Shown here: positions 11,140 through 29,247 of the stretch, one piece after another
Numbering within the stretch: the stretch's first letter is position 1
How the letters are laid out: the number at the start of each line of letters is the position of its first letter
NCBI RefSeq assembly: GCF_029953285.1
Contig: NZ_JASAOI010000050.1
Location: 62,001-126,000 of the forward strand
Source: Yinghuangia seranimata
GTDB lineage: Bacteria; Actinomycetota; Actinomycetes; Streptomycetales; Streptomycetaceae
Length of the DNA: 64,000 nucleotides
Direction: 5' to 3'
The notes under the pieces: generated by a model
Seen by the model: only the letters and a program-made list of their open reading frames with translations
Told to the model about the DNA's origin: nothing
The model's database searches: none
Made by a program: the position numbers and the translations under genes

Positions 11140-11784
11140 TCAGGCGTTCAGGTACGCCAGCACCGCGAGCACCCGCCGGTTGTCGTCGTCCGACGCGTGG
11201 ACGCCGAGCTTCCCGAAGATGCTCGTCGTGTGCTTGCTGACCGCGCCCTCCGAGACGAAGAGCTGCTTCGCGATCGCCGCGTTCGACCGGCCCTGCGCCA
11301 TCAGCTCCAGCACCTCCCGCTCGCGCTCGGTCAGCTGCGCCAGCGGCGCCTTCTGCGTGTTGTGCGCGAGCAGCTTCGAGATGACCTCGGGGTCCATCGC
11401 GGTGCCGCCGGCCGCGACCCGGTTCACCGCCTCGACGAACTGGCCGGTGTCGAACACCCGGTCCTTCAGCAGGTAGCCGACCCCGCCCGACCCGTCGGCG
11501 AGCAACTCCCGCGCGTACAGCTGCTCGACGTACTGCGACAGCACCAGCACCGGCAGCCCGGGAACACGACGACGGGCCTCCAGCGCCGCCTGGAGGCCCT
11601 CATCGGTGAACGTGGGGGGCAGTCGTACGTCGACGACCGCGACATCGGGTTTGTGCTCGACCAGCGCCTTGAGCAGTTCCGGCCCGTTGTCCACGGCCGC
11701 GACGATGTCGCAGCCGTGGGCTTCGAGCAGGCGGACCAGCCCGTCCCTCAGGAGGGCGAGGTCTTCGGCGAGGACAACTCGCAC
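11140..11784 (-). CDS. NarL/FixJ-family response regulator (system 2)
   Basis: 214 residues: receiver domain with Glu7-Asp8 and phospho-acceptor Asp52 (AVVDVRLPPT), then a LuxR-type HTH (LTEREREVLELMAQGRSNAAIAKQL). The GTG start at 11784 lies inside the 3' end of the kinase gene (37-base overlap), a typical coupled arrangement. The LPPTFTDEGL motif is that of the DesR/LiaR-like actinobacterial regulators paired with HDGAQ-type kinases. Confidence 0.93.
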   Translation of the reverse strand: MRVVLAEDLALLRDGLVRLLEAHGCDIVAAVDNGPELLKALVEHKPDVAVVDVRLPPTFTDEGLQAALEARRRVPGLPVLVLSQYVEQLYARELLADGSGGVGYLLKDRVFDTGQFVEAVNRVAAGGTAMDPEVISKLLAHNTQKAPLAQLTEREREVLELMAQGRSNAAIAKQLFVSEGAVSKHTTSIFGKLGVHASDDDNRRVLAVLAYLNA

Positions 11785-13040
11785 GGCAGCTCCATGGTCA
11801 CCGTCGTCGGGCCGCCCTCGGGGGAGTCGAGGGCGAGTGTCCCGTCGAATGTACCCAGCCGCCGCTCGATGCCGCGAAGTCCCGTGCCCTTGTTGAGCGA
11901 CGCACCGCCGCGGCCGTCGTCGATGACGTCGATGTGCAGGCGCCCGGCCCGGTAGCGCAGGTCGACCCACACGTTGCGGGCGCCGGAGTGCTTGGCCGCG
12001 TTGGTCAGCACCTCCATGACCGCGAAGTACGCCGCAGACTCGACCGGCGCCGGCGGACGACCCGAAAGCGCCACCGTCACCTCGACGTTCAGCGGGCTCT
12101 CCAGCGCGATCGCCCGCACCGCGTCGCCCAGGCCGCGGTCCGCCAGGACCGGCGGGTGGATGCCGCGCACCAGGTCGCGCAGTTCGTGCAGGGCCTTCGC
12201 CGACGCCTCACGGGTCTCGCTCAGCAGCTGCCGCGCCGCCTCGGGGTTGCTCTCCATCAGGCTTTCGGCCGCACCCAGGTTCATCCCCATCGCGACCAGC
12301 CGGGCCTGCGCACCGTCGTGCAAGTCGCGCTCGATGCGCCGCAGTTCGGCGGCCGAGGCGTCGACCGCGGCCGAGCGGGTGTCGGTCAGGTGGGCGACCC
12401 GCAGCAGCATCTCGGCCTTCTTGGTGGGCGCCAGCAGCGAACGCGTGAACAGAGCGTGCGCCTTGAGCATCGCCGGGGCGATCGCGAAGCCGACCACGAC
12501 GTACGCCATACCGAGGAACACCGCCATGACCGCGCGGCTGTCGCTGTCGACCTTGAGGAACGTGTACCAGCCGCTGTCCCCGGCCTCGGTGATCGGCTTC
12601 CACAGGAACGGCTGCAGCATCCCGAACACGCCCTCGGCGATGAACCCGAGCGCCATGATCGCCAGCGCCAGCCCGACCGCCAGGTCGGCGAGCGTCCACA
12701 GCAGGTCACGCCACGTCGCCGGGTCGGTCAGCATCCAGCGCAGACGCTGCACGACACCGGGGATGCCGCTGTCGAAGTGCGGCCGCGGGCGGTACGGCTC
12801 GGCGATGCGGACGCCCGTCCACGCCTCGCTGCGCCGCCGCGCGTGGTTGGCCAGCCCCCGGGTCGCGCTCACCAGCACCGGCACCACCAAAACGCCGATA
12901 CCGATGATCATCAGCGGCAGGAACGTCACCGTCAGGCAGAACAGCACCAGCCCGAGGACCATCGACGGCACCAGCGCGAGCCCGCGCACCGCGTCGACGC
13001 CGCCCGCGCGGATCCGCGCCCCGATCCCCTTGCCGTTCAT
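11748..13040 (-). CDS. HDGAQ-type sensor histidine kinase (system 2)
   Basis: 430 residues. There are hydrophobic pairs near residues 20-65 and 120-210 (an N-terminal 'sensor'-type membrane domain), then ERDLHDGAQARLVAMGMNLG with the phospho-acceptor His at about 238, NAAKHSGA as N box and DDGRGG near 372. Such kinases usually sense cell-envelope state. The start is the ATG at 13040 with GAGGAGG upstream. It is divergent from the DHA2 exporter at 13282, which may be its target. Confidence 0.92.
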   Translation of the reverse strand: MNGKGIGARIRAGGVDAVRGLALVPSMVLGLVLFCLTVTFLPLMIIGIGVLVVPVLVSATRGLANHARRRSEAWTGVRIAEPYRPRPHFDSGIPGVVQRLRWMLTDPATWRDLLWTLADLAVGLALAIMALGFIAEGVFGMLQPFLWKPITEAGDSGWYTFLKVDSDSRAVMAVFLGMAYVVVGFAIAPAMLKAHALFTRSLLAPTKKAEMLLRVAHLTDTRSAAVDASAAELRRIERDLHDGAQARLVAMGMNLGAAESLMESNPEAARQLLSETREASAKALHELRDLVRGIHPPVLADRGLGDAVRAIALESPLNVEVTVALSGRPPAPVESAAYFAVMEVLTNAAKHSGARNVWVDLRYRAGRLHIDVIDDGRGGASLNKGTGLRGIERRLGTFDGTLALDSPEGGPTTVTMELPCELSSPKTSPS

Positions 13041-13190
13041 CGTTCCTCCTCGGCGATGTTGCCCTGACCTCGGGCTTCTTCCTACACCAGAGAGTCTGCC
13101 GAGGCCCCGCTCCGGGGGCACTGGCTCCCGCCCCCGATCCGGGGTGGGCCTGAACCCACCCCTTCCCCCGGGCTGCCCACCCCCACCGCT

Positions 13191-13260
13191 GACTGCCGCT
13201 GACCGCCGCTGACCGAGGTGCGCCGGACACGGTCAGCGCACGGTCGGCACCCGGTCAGCG
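13191..13260. repeat. Cluster of direct and inverted GCTGACC elements between kinase 2 and the MFS gene
   Basis: CGCTGACTG, then CGCTGACCG twice in direct repeat (the last at 13207-13215), then CGGTCAGCG twice in inverse orientation (13230-13238 and 13252-13260), all within 70 bases ending 21 bases before the exporter start. The arrangement of five copies facing one another suggests a multi-site operator, perhaps for response regulator 2. This is inference from the pattern alone. Confidence 0.45.
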
Positions 13261-13281
13261 GCCCCCGGCACAGTCCTTCCC

Positions 13282-14859
13282 ATGACGACGAACACCACAG
13301 CCACCGGGATCTCGAACGGCCGCAAGTGGGGCACGCTGGCGATCGGCTGCCTGGCCGCTCTCATGCTCACCATCGACATGGGGGCGCTGCACCTGGCGAT
13401 CCCCGGGCTGATCAACGACCTCGACCCGAGCTCCACCCAGCTGCTGTGGATCGCGGACGGCTACGGGTTCGCGCTCGCCGGCCTGCTGGTCACCATGGGC
13501 TGGCTCGGCGACCGGATCGGCCGCAAGCGGCTGCTGCTCGCCGGCACGGCGGCGTTCAGCGTCGCGTCGGTCCTCACCGCGTACGCGACGACGCCGGAGA
13601 TGCTGATCGCGGCGCGCGCCCTGCTCGGCGTCGCGGGTGCCACGATCATGCCGTCCACGCTGTCGCTGATCCGCAACGTCTTCACCGACCCGAAGGAGCG
13701 CACCGCCGCGGTCGGCATCTGGAGCGGTGTCAGCGGCGCGGGCGTCGGGCTCGGCCCGATCCTCGGCGGCCTGATGCTCGACCACTTCTGGTGGGGCTCG
13801 GTGTTCCTGGTCAACCTGCCGATCATGGCGGTGCTGTTCGTCGCGGGCCTGATCGTGCTCCCCGAGTCGCGCAACCCCCGCCCGGGCCGCCTGGACGTGC
13901 CGAGCGTCCCGCTGTCGATCGTCGGCATCCTGGGCCTGGTCTACGCCGTCAAGGAGGCCGCGCACGGCGGCGTCGCCCAGAACTCCGTGCTGGTCTCCGC
14001 GCTGATCGGCGCCGTCGCGCTCACGCTGTTCGTCGTCCGCCAGACCCGGGTCGAGGAGCCGCTGATCGACGTCCGGCTGTTCCGTGAGCGGGCGTTCGCC
14101 GGCGCGATCACCGCCAACGCGTTCGCGATGTTCGCGCTCGTCGCCCAGTCGCTGATCTTCGCGCAGTACTTCCAGTTCGTGCTGGGCTGGTCGCCGCTCA
14201 AGTCCGGCCTGGCCGGCCTGCCCGGCGCGGTCGCCGCGATGACCGGCGGCGCGCTCGCCGCGGGACTCATCACCAAGCTCGGCCGCGGCCGCACCATCGG
14301 CCTCGGACTGGCCGTCTCCGCCGCCGGGTTCACGCTCTACACGCTGACCGGCACCGCTTCGAACTACCCCACGCTGGTCGCCGCGATGCTGCCGGTCGGC
14401 TTCGGGATGGGCATGGCGATGACCGTCACCGCCGACATGGTCCTCGCGGCTGTGCCGAAGGAGCGCGCCGGTGCCGCCTCCGCGATCTCCGAGACCGCGA
14501 CCGAACTCGGCGGCGCGCTCGGCATGGCGGTCCTCGGCTCCGTCTTGAACAGCGCCTACCGCGGCAACCTGGAGCTGCCCGCCGGCGTCCCGGCCGAGAG
14601 CGCGGACGGCGCCAAGGACTCGCTCGGCGGCGCGGTCGTCGGCGCGGCGCACCTGCCCGGCGACCTCGCCGGCCGGGTCGTGGACGCGGCGCAGCACGCC
14701 TTCGTCGGCGGCATGCACGTCGCCGCGCTGGTCAGCGCGGGGCTGGCCCTGCTGACCGCGGTGGCCGCGACGTACGCCCTGCGCGGTGTGCCGGCCACCA
14801 TCGAGGAGAACGACGCCGACGAGGCGGACACGGCGCAGGAGGTCGCGCTGGTCGCCTGA
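13282..14859 (+). CDS. DHA2-family (14-TM) MFS drug exporter
   Basis: 525 residues. The QacA/SmvA-like start TIDMGALHLAIPGL has an Asp in TM1, motif A is GDRIGRKRLLLAG, and the antiporter motif C is GAGVGLGPILGG; about 14 hydrophobic segments can be counted. DHA2 pumps exchange protons for cationic drugs, dyes or antibiotics. The ATG at 13282 has no obvious ribosome site, so a very short leader or another start is possible. It is divergent from two-component system 2 and followed by a strong hairpin. Confidence 0.92.
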   Translation: MTTNTTATGISNGRKWGTLAIGCLAALMLTIDMGALHLAIPGLINDLDPSSTQLLWIADGYGFALAGLLVTMGWLGDRIGRKRLLLAGTAAFSVASVLTAYATTPEMLIAARALLGVAGATIMPSTLSLIRNVFTDPKERTAAVGIWSGVSGAGVGLGPILGGLMLDHFWWGSVFLVNLPIMAVLFVAGLIVLPESRNPRPGRLDVPSVPLSIVGILGLVYAVKEAAHGGVAQNSVLVSALIGAVALTLFVVRQTRVEEPLIDVRLFRERAFAGAITANAFAMFALVAQSLIFAQYFQFVLGWSPLKSGLAGLPGAVAAMTGGALAAGLITKLGRGRTIGLGLAVSAAGFTLYTLTGTASNYPTLVAAMLPVGFGMGMAMTVTADMVLAAVPKERAGAASAISETATELGGALGMAVLGSVLNSAYRGNLELPAGVPAESADGAKDSLGGAVVGAAHLPGDLAGRVVDAAQHAFVGGMHVAALVSAGLALLTAVAATYALRGVPATIEENDADEADTAQEVALVA

Positions 14860-26042: not shown

Positions 26043-27413
26043 TCAGCCCTGCTGCATGTCCACGAACCGCGAGTAGTGCCCCTGGAACGCCACGGTGATG
26101 GTGGCCGTAGGACCGTTACGGTGCTTGGCCACGATCAAGTCCGCCTCACCGGCACGAGGCGACTCCTTCTCGTACGCGTCCTCGCGATGCAAGAGGATGA
26201 CCATGTCGGCATCCTGTTCGATCGATCCCGACTCGCGAAGGTCCGAGACCATCGGCTTTTTGTCGGTTCGCTGTTCGGGACCACGGTTCAGCTGCGACAG
26301 GGCGATGACCGGGACTTCGAGCTCCTTGGCGAGGAGCTTGAGGTTTCGGGACATCTCGGAGACCTCCTGCTGCCGGCTCTCGGCACGGCGGCTGCCGCCG
26401 CCGGTCATCAGCTGGAGGTAGTCGATGACGACGAGACGAAGGTCGTTGCGCTGCTTGAGCCTTCGGCACTTGGCGCGGATCTCCATCATCGACAGGTTCG
26501 GCGAGTCGTCGATGTAGAGCGGCGCCGCACTCACATCAGGCATGCGACGAGCGAGCCGGGTCCAGTCCTCGTCCGTCATGTTGCCCGACCGCATGTGGTG
26601 GAGCGCCACGCGGGCCTCGGCCGAGAGCAGACGCATCGCGATCTCGTTGCGCCCCATTTCGAGCGAGAAGATCACACTCGGAAGCCCGTGGTGGATCGAA
26701 CACGCCCGCGCGAAGTCGAGTGCCAGGGTGGATTTGCCCATGGCGGGGCGGGCGGCGATGACGATCATTTGGCCGGGGTGGAGGCCGTTGGTGAGGGAGT
26801 CGAGGTCGGTGAAGCCGGTGGGGACGCCGGACATCTGGCCGTTGCGGGAGCCGATGGCCTCGATCTCGTCGAGGGCGCCTTCCATGATGTCGGCGAGGGG
26901 GGCGTAGTCCTCGCTGGTGCGCTGTTCGGTGACGGCGTAGACCTCGGCCTGGGCGCCGTTGACGATTTCGTCGACGTCGCCGTCGGCGGCGTATCCCATC
27001 TGGACGATGCGGGTGCCGGCCTCGACGAGGCGGCGGAGGACGGCCTGTTCGCGGACGATGCGGGCGTAGTACTCGGCGTTGGCCGCGGTGGGGACCGAGG
27101 AGATCAGGGTGTGGAGGTACGGGGCGCCGCCGACGCGGCCGATCTCGCCGCGTTTGGTGAGCTCGGCGGCGACGGTGACGGCGTCGGCGGGCTCGCCGCG
27201 GGCGTAGAGGTCGAGGACGGCGTTGTAGACCATCTCGTGGGCGGGCCGGTAGAAGTCGATCGGCTTGAGGTTCTCGACGACGTCGGCGATCGCGTCCTTG
27301 GAGAGCATCATGCCGCCGAGGACGGACTGCTCGGCCGCGATGTCCTGGGGCGGGGTGCGCTCGAAGCCCTCGCGGCTCGGCGGTGGAGCGTCCTCGTACT
27401 CCGAGACACTCAT
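26043..27413 (-). CDS. dnaB: Replicative DNA helicase DnaB
   Basis: 456 residues. The N-terminal DnaB domain (about 22-125) and the RecA-like helicase domain are present. Walker A (ARPAMGKST) is near residue 224, Walker B is in LRLVVIDYLQLM, and the DnaB motifs ALSQLNR and DLRESGSIEQDADM follow. It unwinds DNA at the replication fork as a hexamer. No intein is present. The start is the ATG at 27413 (MSVSEYED) with GGAAGGA upstream; a frame 10 codons longer exists. The intergenic region upstream holds a DnaA-box cluster. Confidence 0.97.
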   Translation of the reverse strand: MSVSEYEDAPPPSREGFERTPPQDIAAEQSVLGGMMLSKDAIADVVENLKPIDFYRPAHEMVYNAVLDLYARGEPADAVTVAAELTKRGEIGRVGGAPYLHTLISSVPTAANAEYYARIVREQAVLRRLVEAGTRIVQMGYAADGDVDEIVNGAQAEVYAVTEQRTSEDYAPLADIMEGALDEIEAIGSRNGQMSGVPTGFTDLDSLTNGLHPGQMIVIAARPAMGKSTLALDFARACSIHHGLPSVIFSLEMGRNEIAMRLLSAEARVALHHMRSGNMTDEDWTRLARRMPDVSAAPLYIDDSPNLSMMEIRAKCRRLKQRNDLRLVVIDYLQLMTGGGSRRAESRQQEVSEMSRNLKLLAKELEVPVIALSQLNRGPEQRTDKKPMVSDLRESGSIEQDADMVILLHREDAYEKESPRAGEADLIVAKHRNGPTATITVAFQGHYSRFVDMQQG

Positions 27414-27589
27414 GCCGCGCTTCCTTCCTCGACGTCGGGACACGGCGTGCGCCCGGCCCCTCCGGGGCGCCTGATGGGTCCTGCTCTTTCATACGGCAAC
27501 GGGCCGACAAATCGGCCGCACCACGCGTTGTGCAGTCCCTCACCGTACGGGTGGTCCCGGTCTCGACCAACGCGGTCATACACAGGGCC

Positions 27590-27839
27590 TGTGGATAACT
27601 GTGGACAACCTGTGGAGAGGCACCACTCCGGCTGTGCACAACCTGTGCGCGAAGCCCCTCACACAGCCTGTGCACAACCCGCAAAACCGCCTCTGACCTG
27701 CGGTTTCACTATCCACCGGCTGTGCATGTGAAAAACTTCCGGTCCGATCGACCGGCAATCGCCCCACGTATGTGGACAACCACCGCCCGCATCCACAGGT
27801 AATGACCAAATCCCTGTTGTGATCATTACCTGTGGATGA
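27590..27839. other. Cluster of DnaA-box-like motifs upstream of dnaB
   Basis: Two perfect TTGTCCACA boxes read on the minus strand (27600-27608 and 27771-27779). One TTATCCACA box (27590-27598) directly precedes the first. Two one-mismatch boxes TTGTGCACA are at 27633-27641 and 27669-27677, and TCATCCACA is at 27831-27839. Weaker ones are near 27611, 27709 and 27789. All lie in the 418 bases between dnaB and the MATE gene, a stretch without another gene. DnaA could bind here to control dnaB or to titrate DnaA outside oriC. Confidence 0.8.
27790..27838. repeat. Perfect 16-bp inverted repeat at the start of the MATE gene
   Basis: CATCCACAGGTAATGA (27790-27805) and TCATTACCTGTGGATG (27823-27838) are exact reverse complements around a 17-base loop. 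The right arm contains the first candidate GTG start of the MATE gene (27832) and a near DnaA box; the left arm holds its mirror copy. It could be an operator or an RNA hairpin controlling translation start. Confidence 0.8.
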
Positions 27840-29247
27840 CTACCGTGGGCACGTGGCCGTCGTCCCCGAAGCAGCCCGTACCGCTGCCCCCGAAGCAGCC
27901 CCCAGCCCGCCCCGGCAGAGCCGTGGCGGGCCGCGGCGCGCCCAGGACCGGGAGATCCTCAGGCTGGCCGTGCCGGCCTTCTTCGCCCTCGTCGCCGAGC
28001 CGCTGTTCATCCTCGCGGACGCCGCGATCGTCGGGCACCTGGGCACTCCGCAGCTGGCCGGCCTCGGCATCGCCGGCGCCGTGCTCGGCACGCTCGTCAA
28101 CCTGTGCGTGTTCCTGGCGTACGCCACCACCGCGAGCGTCGCCCGCCTCCTCGGCGCCGGCGACCGCCGCGGCGCGCTGCGCCAGGGTGTGGACGGCCTG
28201 TGGCTCGCCGCGCTGATCGGCGCGGGCCTGCTGGCCGTCGGCGTGGTGGCCGCGCCGTGGATCGTCGACGCGTTCGGCGCCAGCGCGACCGCCGCGCCGC
28301 ACGCCACCACCTACCTGCGGATCAGCAGCCTGGGCGTGCCCGCGATGCTGGTCGTGCTCGCCGCCACCGGCGTACTGCGCGGTCTCCAGGACACCCGGAC
28401 CCCGCTCTACGTCGCGGTCGCCGGGTTCGCCTCGAACCTCGTCCTCAACCTCGCGCTGGTCTACGGCGCGGGCCTCGGCATCGCGGGCTCCGCGTGGGGC
28501 ACGGTCATCGCCCAGTGCGCGATGGCCGTCGGATATCTGGTGGTCGTCGTGCGCGGCGCGCGCCGCCATGACGTGCCGCTCGTCCCCGACTTCGGCGGCA
28601 TCCGCCGGTCGGCGACCGCCGGACTCCCGCTGCTGGTCCGCACGGTGAGCCTGCGCGCGATCCTGCTGATCGCCGCGGTCGCCGCGACCCGGATGGGCGA
28701 CACGGAGATCGGCACGCACCAGGTCGCCTGGCAGATCTGGACGTTGACGGCGTTCGCCCTCGACGCCCTCGCGATCGCCGCGCAGGCGATCGTGGGCCGC
28801 GCACTGGGCGCGGGCGACACGGCAGGCGCGCGCGAGGCGACCCGACGCATGCTGCTGTGGAGCGTGTGCACGGGCGTGGTGTTCGCGGTGGTGCTGGTCG
28901 CGGCGCGCCCGCTGTACATCCCGTGGTTCACCGGCGATCCCGAAGTGCGGCACCTGCTGGGCCTGGTGCTGCTCGCCGCCGCCGCGCTGCAGCCGATCGC
29001 GGGTCCGGTGTTCGTGCTGGACGGCGTGCTCATCGGCGCGGGCGACGGCCGGTTCCTGGCGCTGACGATGCCGGTGGTGCTCGCGGTGTTCGCCGGCACC
29101 GTCGCGGCGGTCCTCGGTCTGGGCGGCGGTCTGATCGCGCTGTGGTGGTGCGCGATCGGCGCGTTCATGGCGAGCCGGCTCGTCCTGCTGGGCTGGCGTG
29201 CCCGGGGCGACAAGTGGATGGTGACCGGGGCGACCGTCGCCAAGTAG
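27832..29247 (+). CDS. MATE-family efflux transporter (DinF-like)
   Basis: Up to 471 residues with twelve hydrophobic segments and MATE features (LRLAVPAFFALVAEPLFILADAAIVGHLG split by helices, ATGVLRGLQDTRTPL, and QAIVGRALGAGD in the second half). It exports drugs or metabolites by sodium or proton exchange. The start is uncertain: GTG 27832 lies in the inverted repeat, and GTG 27853 gives 464 residues; neither has a ribosome site, so a leaderless message is possible. From memory, a DinF-type gene next to dnaB is conserved in Streptomyces. It converges with copA. Confidence 0.9.
   Translation: MDDYRGHVAVVPEAARTAAPEAAPSPPRQSRGGPRRAQDREILRLAVPAFFALVAEPLFILADAAIVGHLGTPQLAGLGIAGAVLGTLVNLCVFLAYATTASVARLLGAGDRRGALRQGVDGLWLAALIGAGLLAVGVVAAPWIVDAFGASATAAPHATTYLRISSLGVPAMLVVLAATGVLRGLQDTRTPLYVAVAGFASNLVLNLALVYGAGLGIAGSAWGTVIAQCAMAVGYLVVVVRGARRHDVPLVPDFGGIRRSATAGLPLLVRTVSLRAILLIAAVAATRMGDTEIGTHQVAWQIWTLTAFALDALAIAAQAIVGRALGAGDTAGAREATRRMLLWSVCTGVVFAVVLVAARPLYIPWFTGDPEVRHLLGLVLLAAAALQPIAGPVFVLDGVLIGAGDGRFLALTMPVVLAVFAGTVAAVLGLGGGLIALWWCAIGAFMASRLVLLGWRARGDKWMVTGATVAK

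Follow-up and report, generated by a model that had tools for sequence, protein, structure and literature searches.

A phased DnaA-box array upstream of dnaB in Yinghuangia seranimata, probably one copy of a promoter module conserved in Actinomycetes

The dnaB locus and its cluster of DnaA boxes

In the window, i.e. the whole 64-kb stretch of Yinghuangia seranimata DNA analysed here, the gene for the replicative helicase DnaB and a divergent gene for a MATE-family transporter enclose a region rich in DnaA boxes (Table 1). Six boxes with at most one mismatch to TTRTCCACA lie at 27590-27839, all on the minus (dnaB coding) strand, reproducing in number and position the two perfect, one variant and three one-mismatch boxes within 250 bases that a first-pass annotation had reported. 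The boxes at 27771 and 27831 precede, in the dnaB direction, a composite block described below, and the place of the degenerate reverse box TCATACACA is often occupied by TTATCCACA in Streptomyces and relatives. The start of the MATE gene carries an inverted repeat (CATCCACAGGTAATGACCA / TGATCATTACCTGTGGATG, window 27790-27838), which may be a MATE operator or else two weak DnaA boxes that face each other; a related form, GGTAA..TTAC, is present in aligned Streptomyces. A search of the window locus for known RNAs returned only matches far below Rfam gathering scores.

Table 1. Position of genes, DnaA boxes and predicted promoter elements in the window; register values are counted from the composite block.
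Feature	Position	Strand	Remark
dnaB, replicative helicase (Pfam DnaB, DnaB_C)	26043-27413	-	ORF from 27443 (GTG); probable ATG 27411-27413
Putative -10 TACGGT of the dnaB promoter	27542-27547	-	predicted; 17 nt from -35
Putative -35 TTGGTC	27565-27570	-	174 nt from block start; same place in 20/61 block-bearing dnaB loci
Degenerate reverse DnaA box TCATACACA	27576-27584	+	just before -35; +160 from block
DnaA box TTATCCACA	27590-27598	-	+146 in 11-bp register
DnaA box TTGTCCACA (perfect)	27600-27608	-	+136 in register
Weak DnaA box CTCTCCACA	27611-27619	-	two mismatches; +125 in register
DnaA box TTGTGCACA (one-mismatch)	27633-27641	-	+103 in register
DnaA box TTGTGCACA (one-mismatch), second occurrence	27669-27677	-	+67 in register
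Composite block, 62 bp	27683-27744	-	T-rich, palindromic DnaA-box cores, N11, CAGGTCAG; sole match in window
DnaA box TTGTCCACA (perfect)	27771-27779	-	upstream of composite block (-35 relative to block)
DnaA box TCATCCACA (one-mismatch)	27831-27839	-	at MATE gene start, inside inverted repeat
Divergent MATE-family transporter gene (PF01554)	27832-29247	+	Pfam match

Elsewhere in the window, a box with at most one mismatch occurs once, at 11687; when two mismatches are allowed, the 250-base bin from 27551 holds 12 sites, as compared to at most three in bins away from the region. By total number the boxes are unremarkable: scanning the full 64 kb for TTGTCCACA with one mismatch allowed gave 6 matches vs 5.8 in shuffles, and the genome (9,795,748 bp, 113 contigs) contains exact TTRTCCACA 44 times vs 35 times for a reversed control pattern. 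With single boxes near genome background, only their clustering is informative. From 44 sites in 9,795,748 bp, simple arithmetic predicts ~2e-5 triplets of exact boxes within 200 bp per genome, and the dnaB locus has three exact boxes in 190 bp. Compared with background, the boxes show no marked excess in total over shuffles or the reversed control, and their clustering upstream of dnaB is far beyond chance: several 9-mer boxes in a short region, as defines a DnaA-box cluster outside oriC.

The origin itself, situated between dnaA and dnaN (C31:140893-141398, corresponding to L081:14893-15398), contains 16 boxes of at most one mismatch. At ~51 kb from oriC and adjoining dnaB, the cluster is indeed where the first-pass annotation had put it, upstream of the helicase gene and outside oriC, and it shares with the clusters known from Streptomyces coelicolor a location near the origin. 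Six boxes of at most one mismatch were also seen inside the dnaA coding sequence (L081:13181-13540; dnaA frame 12753-14693). The densest set of exact boxes in the genome is a different one, with four exact boxes and one one-mismatch box within ~200 bp (C35:48674-48877, corresponding to L083:2175-2378) and flanks that, judged by eye, resemble purQ and an Lsr2-type gene. This group as an Embleya-type second-chromosome origin was ruled out, the genome having one dnaN. Other groups of exact boxes within ~200 bp are pairs at C10:25129-25166 and C88:23103-23142.

Conservation of the array, its composite block and its register

In 80 named dnaB loci (the best 80 of 573, biased towards close relatives), we scanned the 600 bp that precede the match to DnaB and found 280 boxes of at most one mismatch vs a shuffle mean of 9.45 (maximum 16, 20 rounds), 229 of them on the dnaB strand. 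All 80 loci had at least one box, 74 at least two and 60 at least three. Exact boxes numbered 91, in 55 loci, vs 0.25 in shuffles; the best of 300 permutations of the consensus reached 6 exact matches, and a control stretch taken from 450 nt inside the dnaB match yielded, over the 80 loci, 1 exact and 9 one-mismatch boxes. A functionless cluster, arising by chance or composition, would agree with the background-level box totals of window and genome. Shuffles, permuted consensus and the control within dnaB were grounds for rejecting it, and clustering, conservation, strand bias and the phasing described below are all contrary to it, leaving this reading with virtually no credence.

For a wider view, the analyst picked 60 stretches out of 271 genomes with a DnaB match as a phylum sample. 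The nine stretches of class Actinomycetes in it all had at least two boxes; among the 51 from outside the class, 27 had at least one and 11 at least two. A further class sample, likewise picked by the analyst (40 stretches out of 133 genomes with a DnaB match, spanning 33 families), had at least one box in 38 and at least two in 28 stretches, one of the two box-less stretches being only 318 bp long, and its boxes totalled 103 vs 6.8 expected, with 81 on the dnaB strand. The box counts inside and outside the class mark the array as a feature of class Actinomycetes that is sporadic beyond. Kinship among the 120 upstream regions was such that six pairs share more than half of their 14-mers, with L025/L188 and L053/L196 near-identical. 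The first-pass annotation had turned to relatives for conservation of box number and spacing: boxes are kept across the class and, as detailed below, their precise spacing recurs. Given clustering beyond chance and class-wide conservation, the sequence-level outcomes it had named as speaking against a genuine cluster (density equal to background, no conservation in relatives) do not hold.

Conservation does not follow the neighbouring gene. A divergent MATE gene accompanies dnaB in 50 of the 80 named loci; for the other 30, 22 of them with rplI, MATE was not found in the stretch, and boxes are present in all loci of both groups. A MATE-linked operator was rejected on account of these 30 loci. 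Judged by such neighbourhoods, the box array goes with dnaB rather than with MATE.

In an unbiased k-mer count over the 120 upstream regions, the most enriched 7- and 8-mers were DnaA-box words. CAGGTCA was enriched as well (48/120 regions vs 5.3 expected); another enriched word, AGGATCT, was set aside for its resemblance to the antisense of the MATE coding end. CAGGTCA is part of a composite block with fixed internal spacing, in which a T-rich stretch is followed by TCCACAGSCGGTGGA and then by N11 from GGTGGA to CAGGTCA; the block is palindromic around two DnaA-box cores, and its flanks are not DnaA boxes. An iterated matrix recognised the block in 61 of 121 regions (the window plus the 120), once in the window, and in none of the oriC and other-cluster stretches (L081-L086). 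It went unrecognised in L065 and L080, the two named Mycobacterium loci. In three Streptomycetaceae genomes (G115, G169, G201), weak and partial matches of 20-24 bits were seen near dnaA, by position the oriC region.

A sequence-only model built from 41 dnaB copies was then used to search 138 genomes of the class. At E<=0.01, a block match was obtained in 94 genomes, and 44, including G016 (see below), had none under these strict filters. Matches with E below 1e-4 also numbered 94: 47 genomes contributed 48 that lie upstream of dnaB, 45 genomes contributed 46 at other places, and 17 of the 138 genomes had both kinds. The 48 dnaB-side matches share the strand of dnaB without exception and precede the query start by 214-540 nt. 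Since the block was derived by iteration on dnaB copies, its conservation at dnaB is partly by construction; nothing about the second location entered the model, so the second copies provide an independent check. As two conserved parts of the composite block, CAGGTCA and the T-rich stretch, are distinct from DnaA boxes, dnaB might instead be governed chiefly by a different regulator that recognises the block, with DnaA boxes merely assisting. We consider this highly improbable, as the block is absent or unrecognised in 60 of 121 regions where boxes persist and DnaA boxes are the most enriched words.

Counted from the block, 9-mer boxes (TCCACA cores) recur at 79-80, 91-92, 103, 122-125, 134-137 and 145-148 in dnaB copies, and 9-mer boxes in second copies at 67, 79, 101-103, 124, 134-135 and 146-148. 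The best period was 11.1 bp for dnaB copies (vector strength 0.85; 61 loci, 154 boxes), the vector strength being 0.81 when the 42 loci from families other than Streptomycetaceae were taken alone. For second copies it was 11.2 bp (0.91; 20 loci, 65 boxes). Controls did not exceed 0.35 with random placement and 0.59 with per-locus jitter. The 11-bp register is about one helical turn. We then searched for a sigma70-type promoter pattern (TTGNYN-N16-18-TANNNT). Of 61 dnaB copies, 20 had it at +173/174 (18 from Streptomycetaceae, window included, and two from Cellulomonas) vs 0.3 in shuffles; nearly all second copies (19/20) had it between +164 and +195, vs 0.0 in shuffles. For TTGG, TTGA or TTGC, dnaB copies gave 24 occurrences at +173/174 and 15 a turn closer to the block, at +163/164. 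The boxes are thus directly upstream of dnaB and adjoin its predicted promoter, as would be the case at a DnaA-regulated dnaB promoter. The dnaB gene of S. coelicolor is reported to belong to the HrdB regulon, whose promoters, according to the part of that study considered here, are mostly without a conserved -35 (PMC6344877). As far as sequence goes, composite block, boxes in 11-bp register and the predicted sigma70-type promoter are a single module.

Second copies of the module and a hairpin RNA

Of the 46 second-copy blocks, 20 (L218-L237) were examined in detail. BLAST clustering of the called ORFs identified as neighbours a YgjP-like metallopeptidase in 13/20 and a Zincin_2 protein in 13/20 loci, at least one of them being present in 16/20; Pfam names, which come from seven representatives, also included NUDIX, ABC1, enoyl-CoA hydratase and MoaE. 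At the ygjP locus of five Streptomycetaceae genomes (L238-L242) we observed no composite block and one DnaA box, which shares the strand of ygjP and precedes it by ~185-240 bp; the box is exact in four genomes and has one mismatch in the window's own.

After the predicted promoter, all 20 second loci contain a long hairpin with a GGGGAAG loop (e.g. L232:3229-3352); the search was anchored on GGGGAAG, making loop invariance in these loci partly by construction. Aligning the 20 hairpins revealed 16 of 22 pairs changed on both sides. Pairing was possible in 93.4% of cells vs 79.0% in shuffles (0/500) and 32-47% when slid, with the structure predicted from the same alignment that was used for this comparison. 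Folding z-scores ranged from -0.9 to -5.3 (mononucleotide shuffles). The hairpin as a known Rfam family was rejected, no family reaching gathering in the 15 of 20 second loci scanned and nothing coming near threshold for L232.

With a covariance model and a threshold of E<=0.001, the 138 class genomes split evenly into 69 with a match to the hairpin RNA and 69 without. It was found downstream of the block on the same strand at 43 of 46 second-copy blocks; a few antisense matches reflect hairpin symmetry. Of 27 RNA matches without a block match (below 1e-4), 20 were examined, and 13 of these had at least two DnaA boxes upstream, the loci totalling 41 boxes vs 2.85 expected, 36 of them on the RNA strand. 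DnaA boxes were absent upstream in the other 7 of the 20. The GGGGAAG loop recurred in 19 of these 20 independent RNA loci. Among 20 named genomes, Jiangella aurantiaca alone had the hairpin RNA, preceded by block and boxes (L263, loop near 1563), and the other 19 were without it. None of the 10 Streptomycetaceae genomes had a hairpin match, including that of the window, which carries the dnaB copy of the module. The RNA, missing from half of the class genomes and from 19 of 20 named genomes, is thus patchily distributed. We infer that it is transcribed.

Proposed control of dnaB by DnaA and relation to known systems

Fixed orientation, 11-bp phasing into the predicted promoter and the loci where MATE was not found would point, in the first place, to control of dnaB transcription. 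The cluster is probably the dnaB copy of a conserved DnaA-array promoter, on which DnaA would assemble to control, most likely to activate, transcription of dnaB. We envisage that DnaA would nucleate at the strong boxes and the composite block and that its assembly would spread along one face of the DNA as far as the edge of the -35, where the assembled protein would influence RNA polymerase, activation being the likeliest effect. Helicase supply would thereby track the initiator's level or its ATP state. As the same module precedes a small hairpin RNA in many Actinomycetes, a single DnaA signal would govern both helicase and RNA. DnaA bound to the array would also contribute to titration, which we take to be a by-product.

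Published work on mycobacteria provides support. In the part of the study considered here, DnaA of Mycobacterium tuberculosis binds upstream of dnaB in vitro, this being among its five strongest sites; homologues of these five were bound in M. smegmatis ChIP-seq, and the DnaA I282T variant combined weaker binding upstream of dnaB with under-expression of dnaB (PMC7738170). Since the block was not recognised in the named Mycobacterium loci, the mycobacterial binding data support the boxes, not the block. We infer that the mechanism is the same in the organism of the window. Activation is suggested by the correlation in one mutant, and repression would fit the anatomy, too.

Alternatively, the boxes may soak up DnaA near oriC to delay or limit initiation, their position upstream of dnaB being incidental. 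Besides the ~51 kb that separate the cluster from oriC, the dnaA-dnaB distances worked out for other genomes are 36 kb (G031), 71 kb (G093) and 143 kb (G412); with distances this short, the dnaB site usually replicates early. In addition, clusters of S. coelicolor have been cited as datA-like in the portions considered of two reports (PMC4585315, PMC10950094). Titration alone, however, leaves unexplained the single orientation, the 11-bp register into the promoter and the block. Moreover, in G016, where dnaA is on a different contig and at least ~472 kb separate dnaB from either end of its contig, eight boxes still lie upstream of dnaB, and the second copies stand before another promoter. Titration as the main role therefore seems unlikely to us, and it is compatible with promoter control.

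A site of the datA or DARS kind is recognised by DnaA-ATP hydrolysis or DnaA-ADP reactivation on it, with IHF. The cluster could be such a switch between the ATP and ADP forms of DnaA, with transcription not its main role: it occupies a conserved intergenic place, includes a composite block beyond the boxes and has two chromosomal copies in 17/138 genomes. Both kinds of copy run into promoter-like sequence, however, and the RNA evidently occurs without a site of this type, as 7/20 RNA loci have no DnaA boxes, so that we judge this explanation distinctly improbable.

Extending the promoter-control reading to the class, we tentatively raise the possibility that Actinomycetes carry a phased DnaA-array promoter at two conserved places, through which the initiator might set both helicase supply and the level of an uncatalogued hairpin small RNA, forming a feedback circuit that may replace the DnaA regulators of E. 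coli and B. subtilis. For the coupling of initiation to later steps of replication in actinobacteria, a phased array at the helicase promoter would be a concrete circuit; the second copy, before a covarying RNA, is a candidate DnaA output. In the part of one report considered, many bacteria, including mycobacteria, are described as being without identified homologues of helicase loaders and DnaA regulators, to which DciA was then added (PMC5720831).

Control of dnaB by DnaA as such is already known in mycobacteria and Caulobacter. In the open-licence literature searched, the mycobacterial paper alone paired DnaA with sequence upstream of dnaB, and no title on DnaA-binding sites by ChIP-seq in Streptomyces or on DnaA and small RNAs in actinomycetes pointed to this module; within that literature, we think that the phased module, its spread and its RNA copy are undescribed. 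The mycobacterial region resembles the cluster in being DnaA-bound upstream of dnaB, weaker binding going with lower dnaB expression in the part of the source considered (PMC7738170), but differs in two respects: neither of the named Mycobacterium loci has a recognised block, and a search of the M. intermedium genome returned no hairpin RNA. In Caulobacter crescentus, dnaB likewise has predicted DnaA boxes upstream and is placed in the DnaA regulon (PMC8203912). This lineage is unrelated, however, and the passages considered mention neither a composite block nor a phased array (PMC8203912).

The E. coli loci datA, DARS1 and DARS2 are also conserved intergenic DnaA-box loci with control roles, whereas boxes of the dnaB array mostly run in one direction and in 11-bp register into a predicted promoter. 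The nearest likeness in family and position is with H24, H69 and D78 of S. coelicolor, DnaA-box clusters outside but near oriC in the same family, reportedly titration or replication-control loci; deletion of D78 is said to raise, and extra copies to lower, replication frequency. Cosmid H24, which we take to carry dnaB (SCO3911), would make the H24 cluster the natural counterpart of the one studied here, and from this cosmid content the two may be the same locus. In contrast to these descriptions, the window cluster reads as a promoter module, which would suggest that Streptomyces DnaA-box clusters, interpreted until now as titration sites, can serve as promoters.
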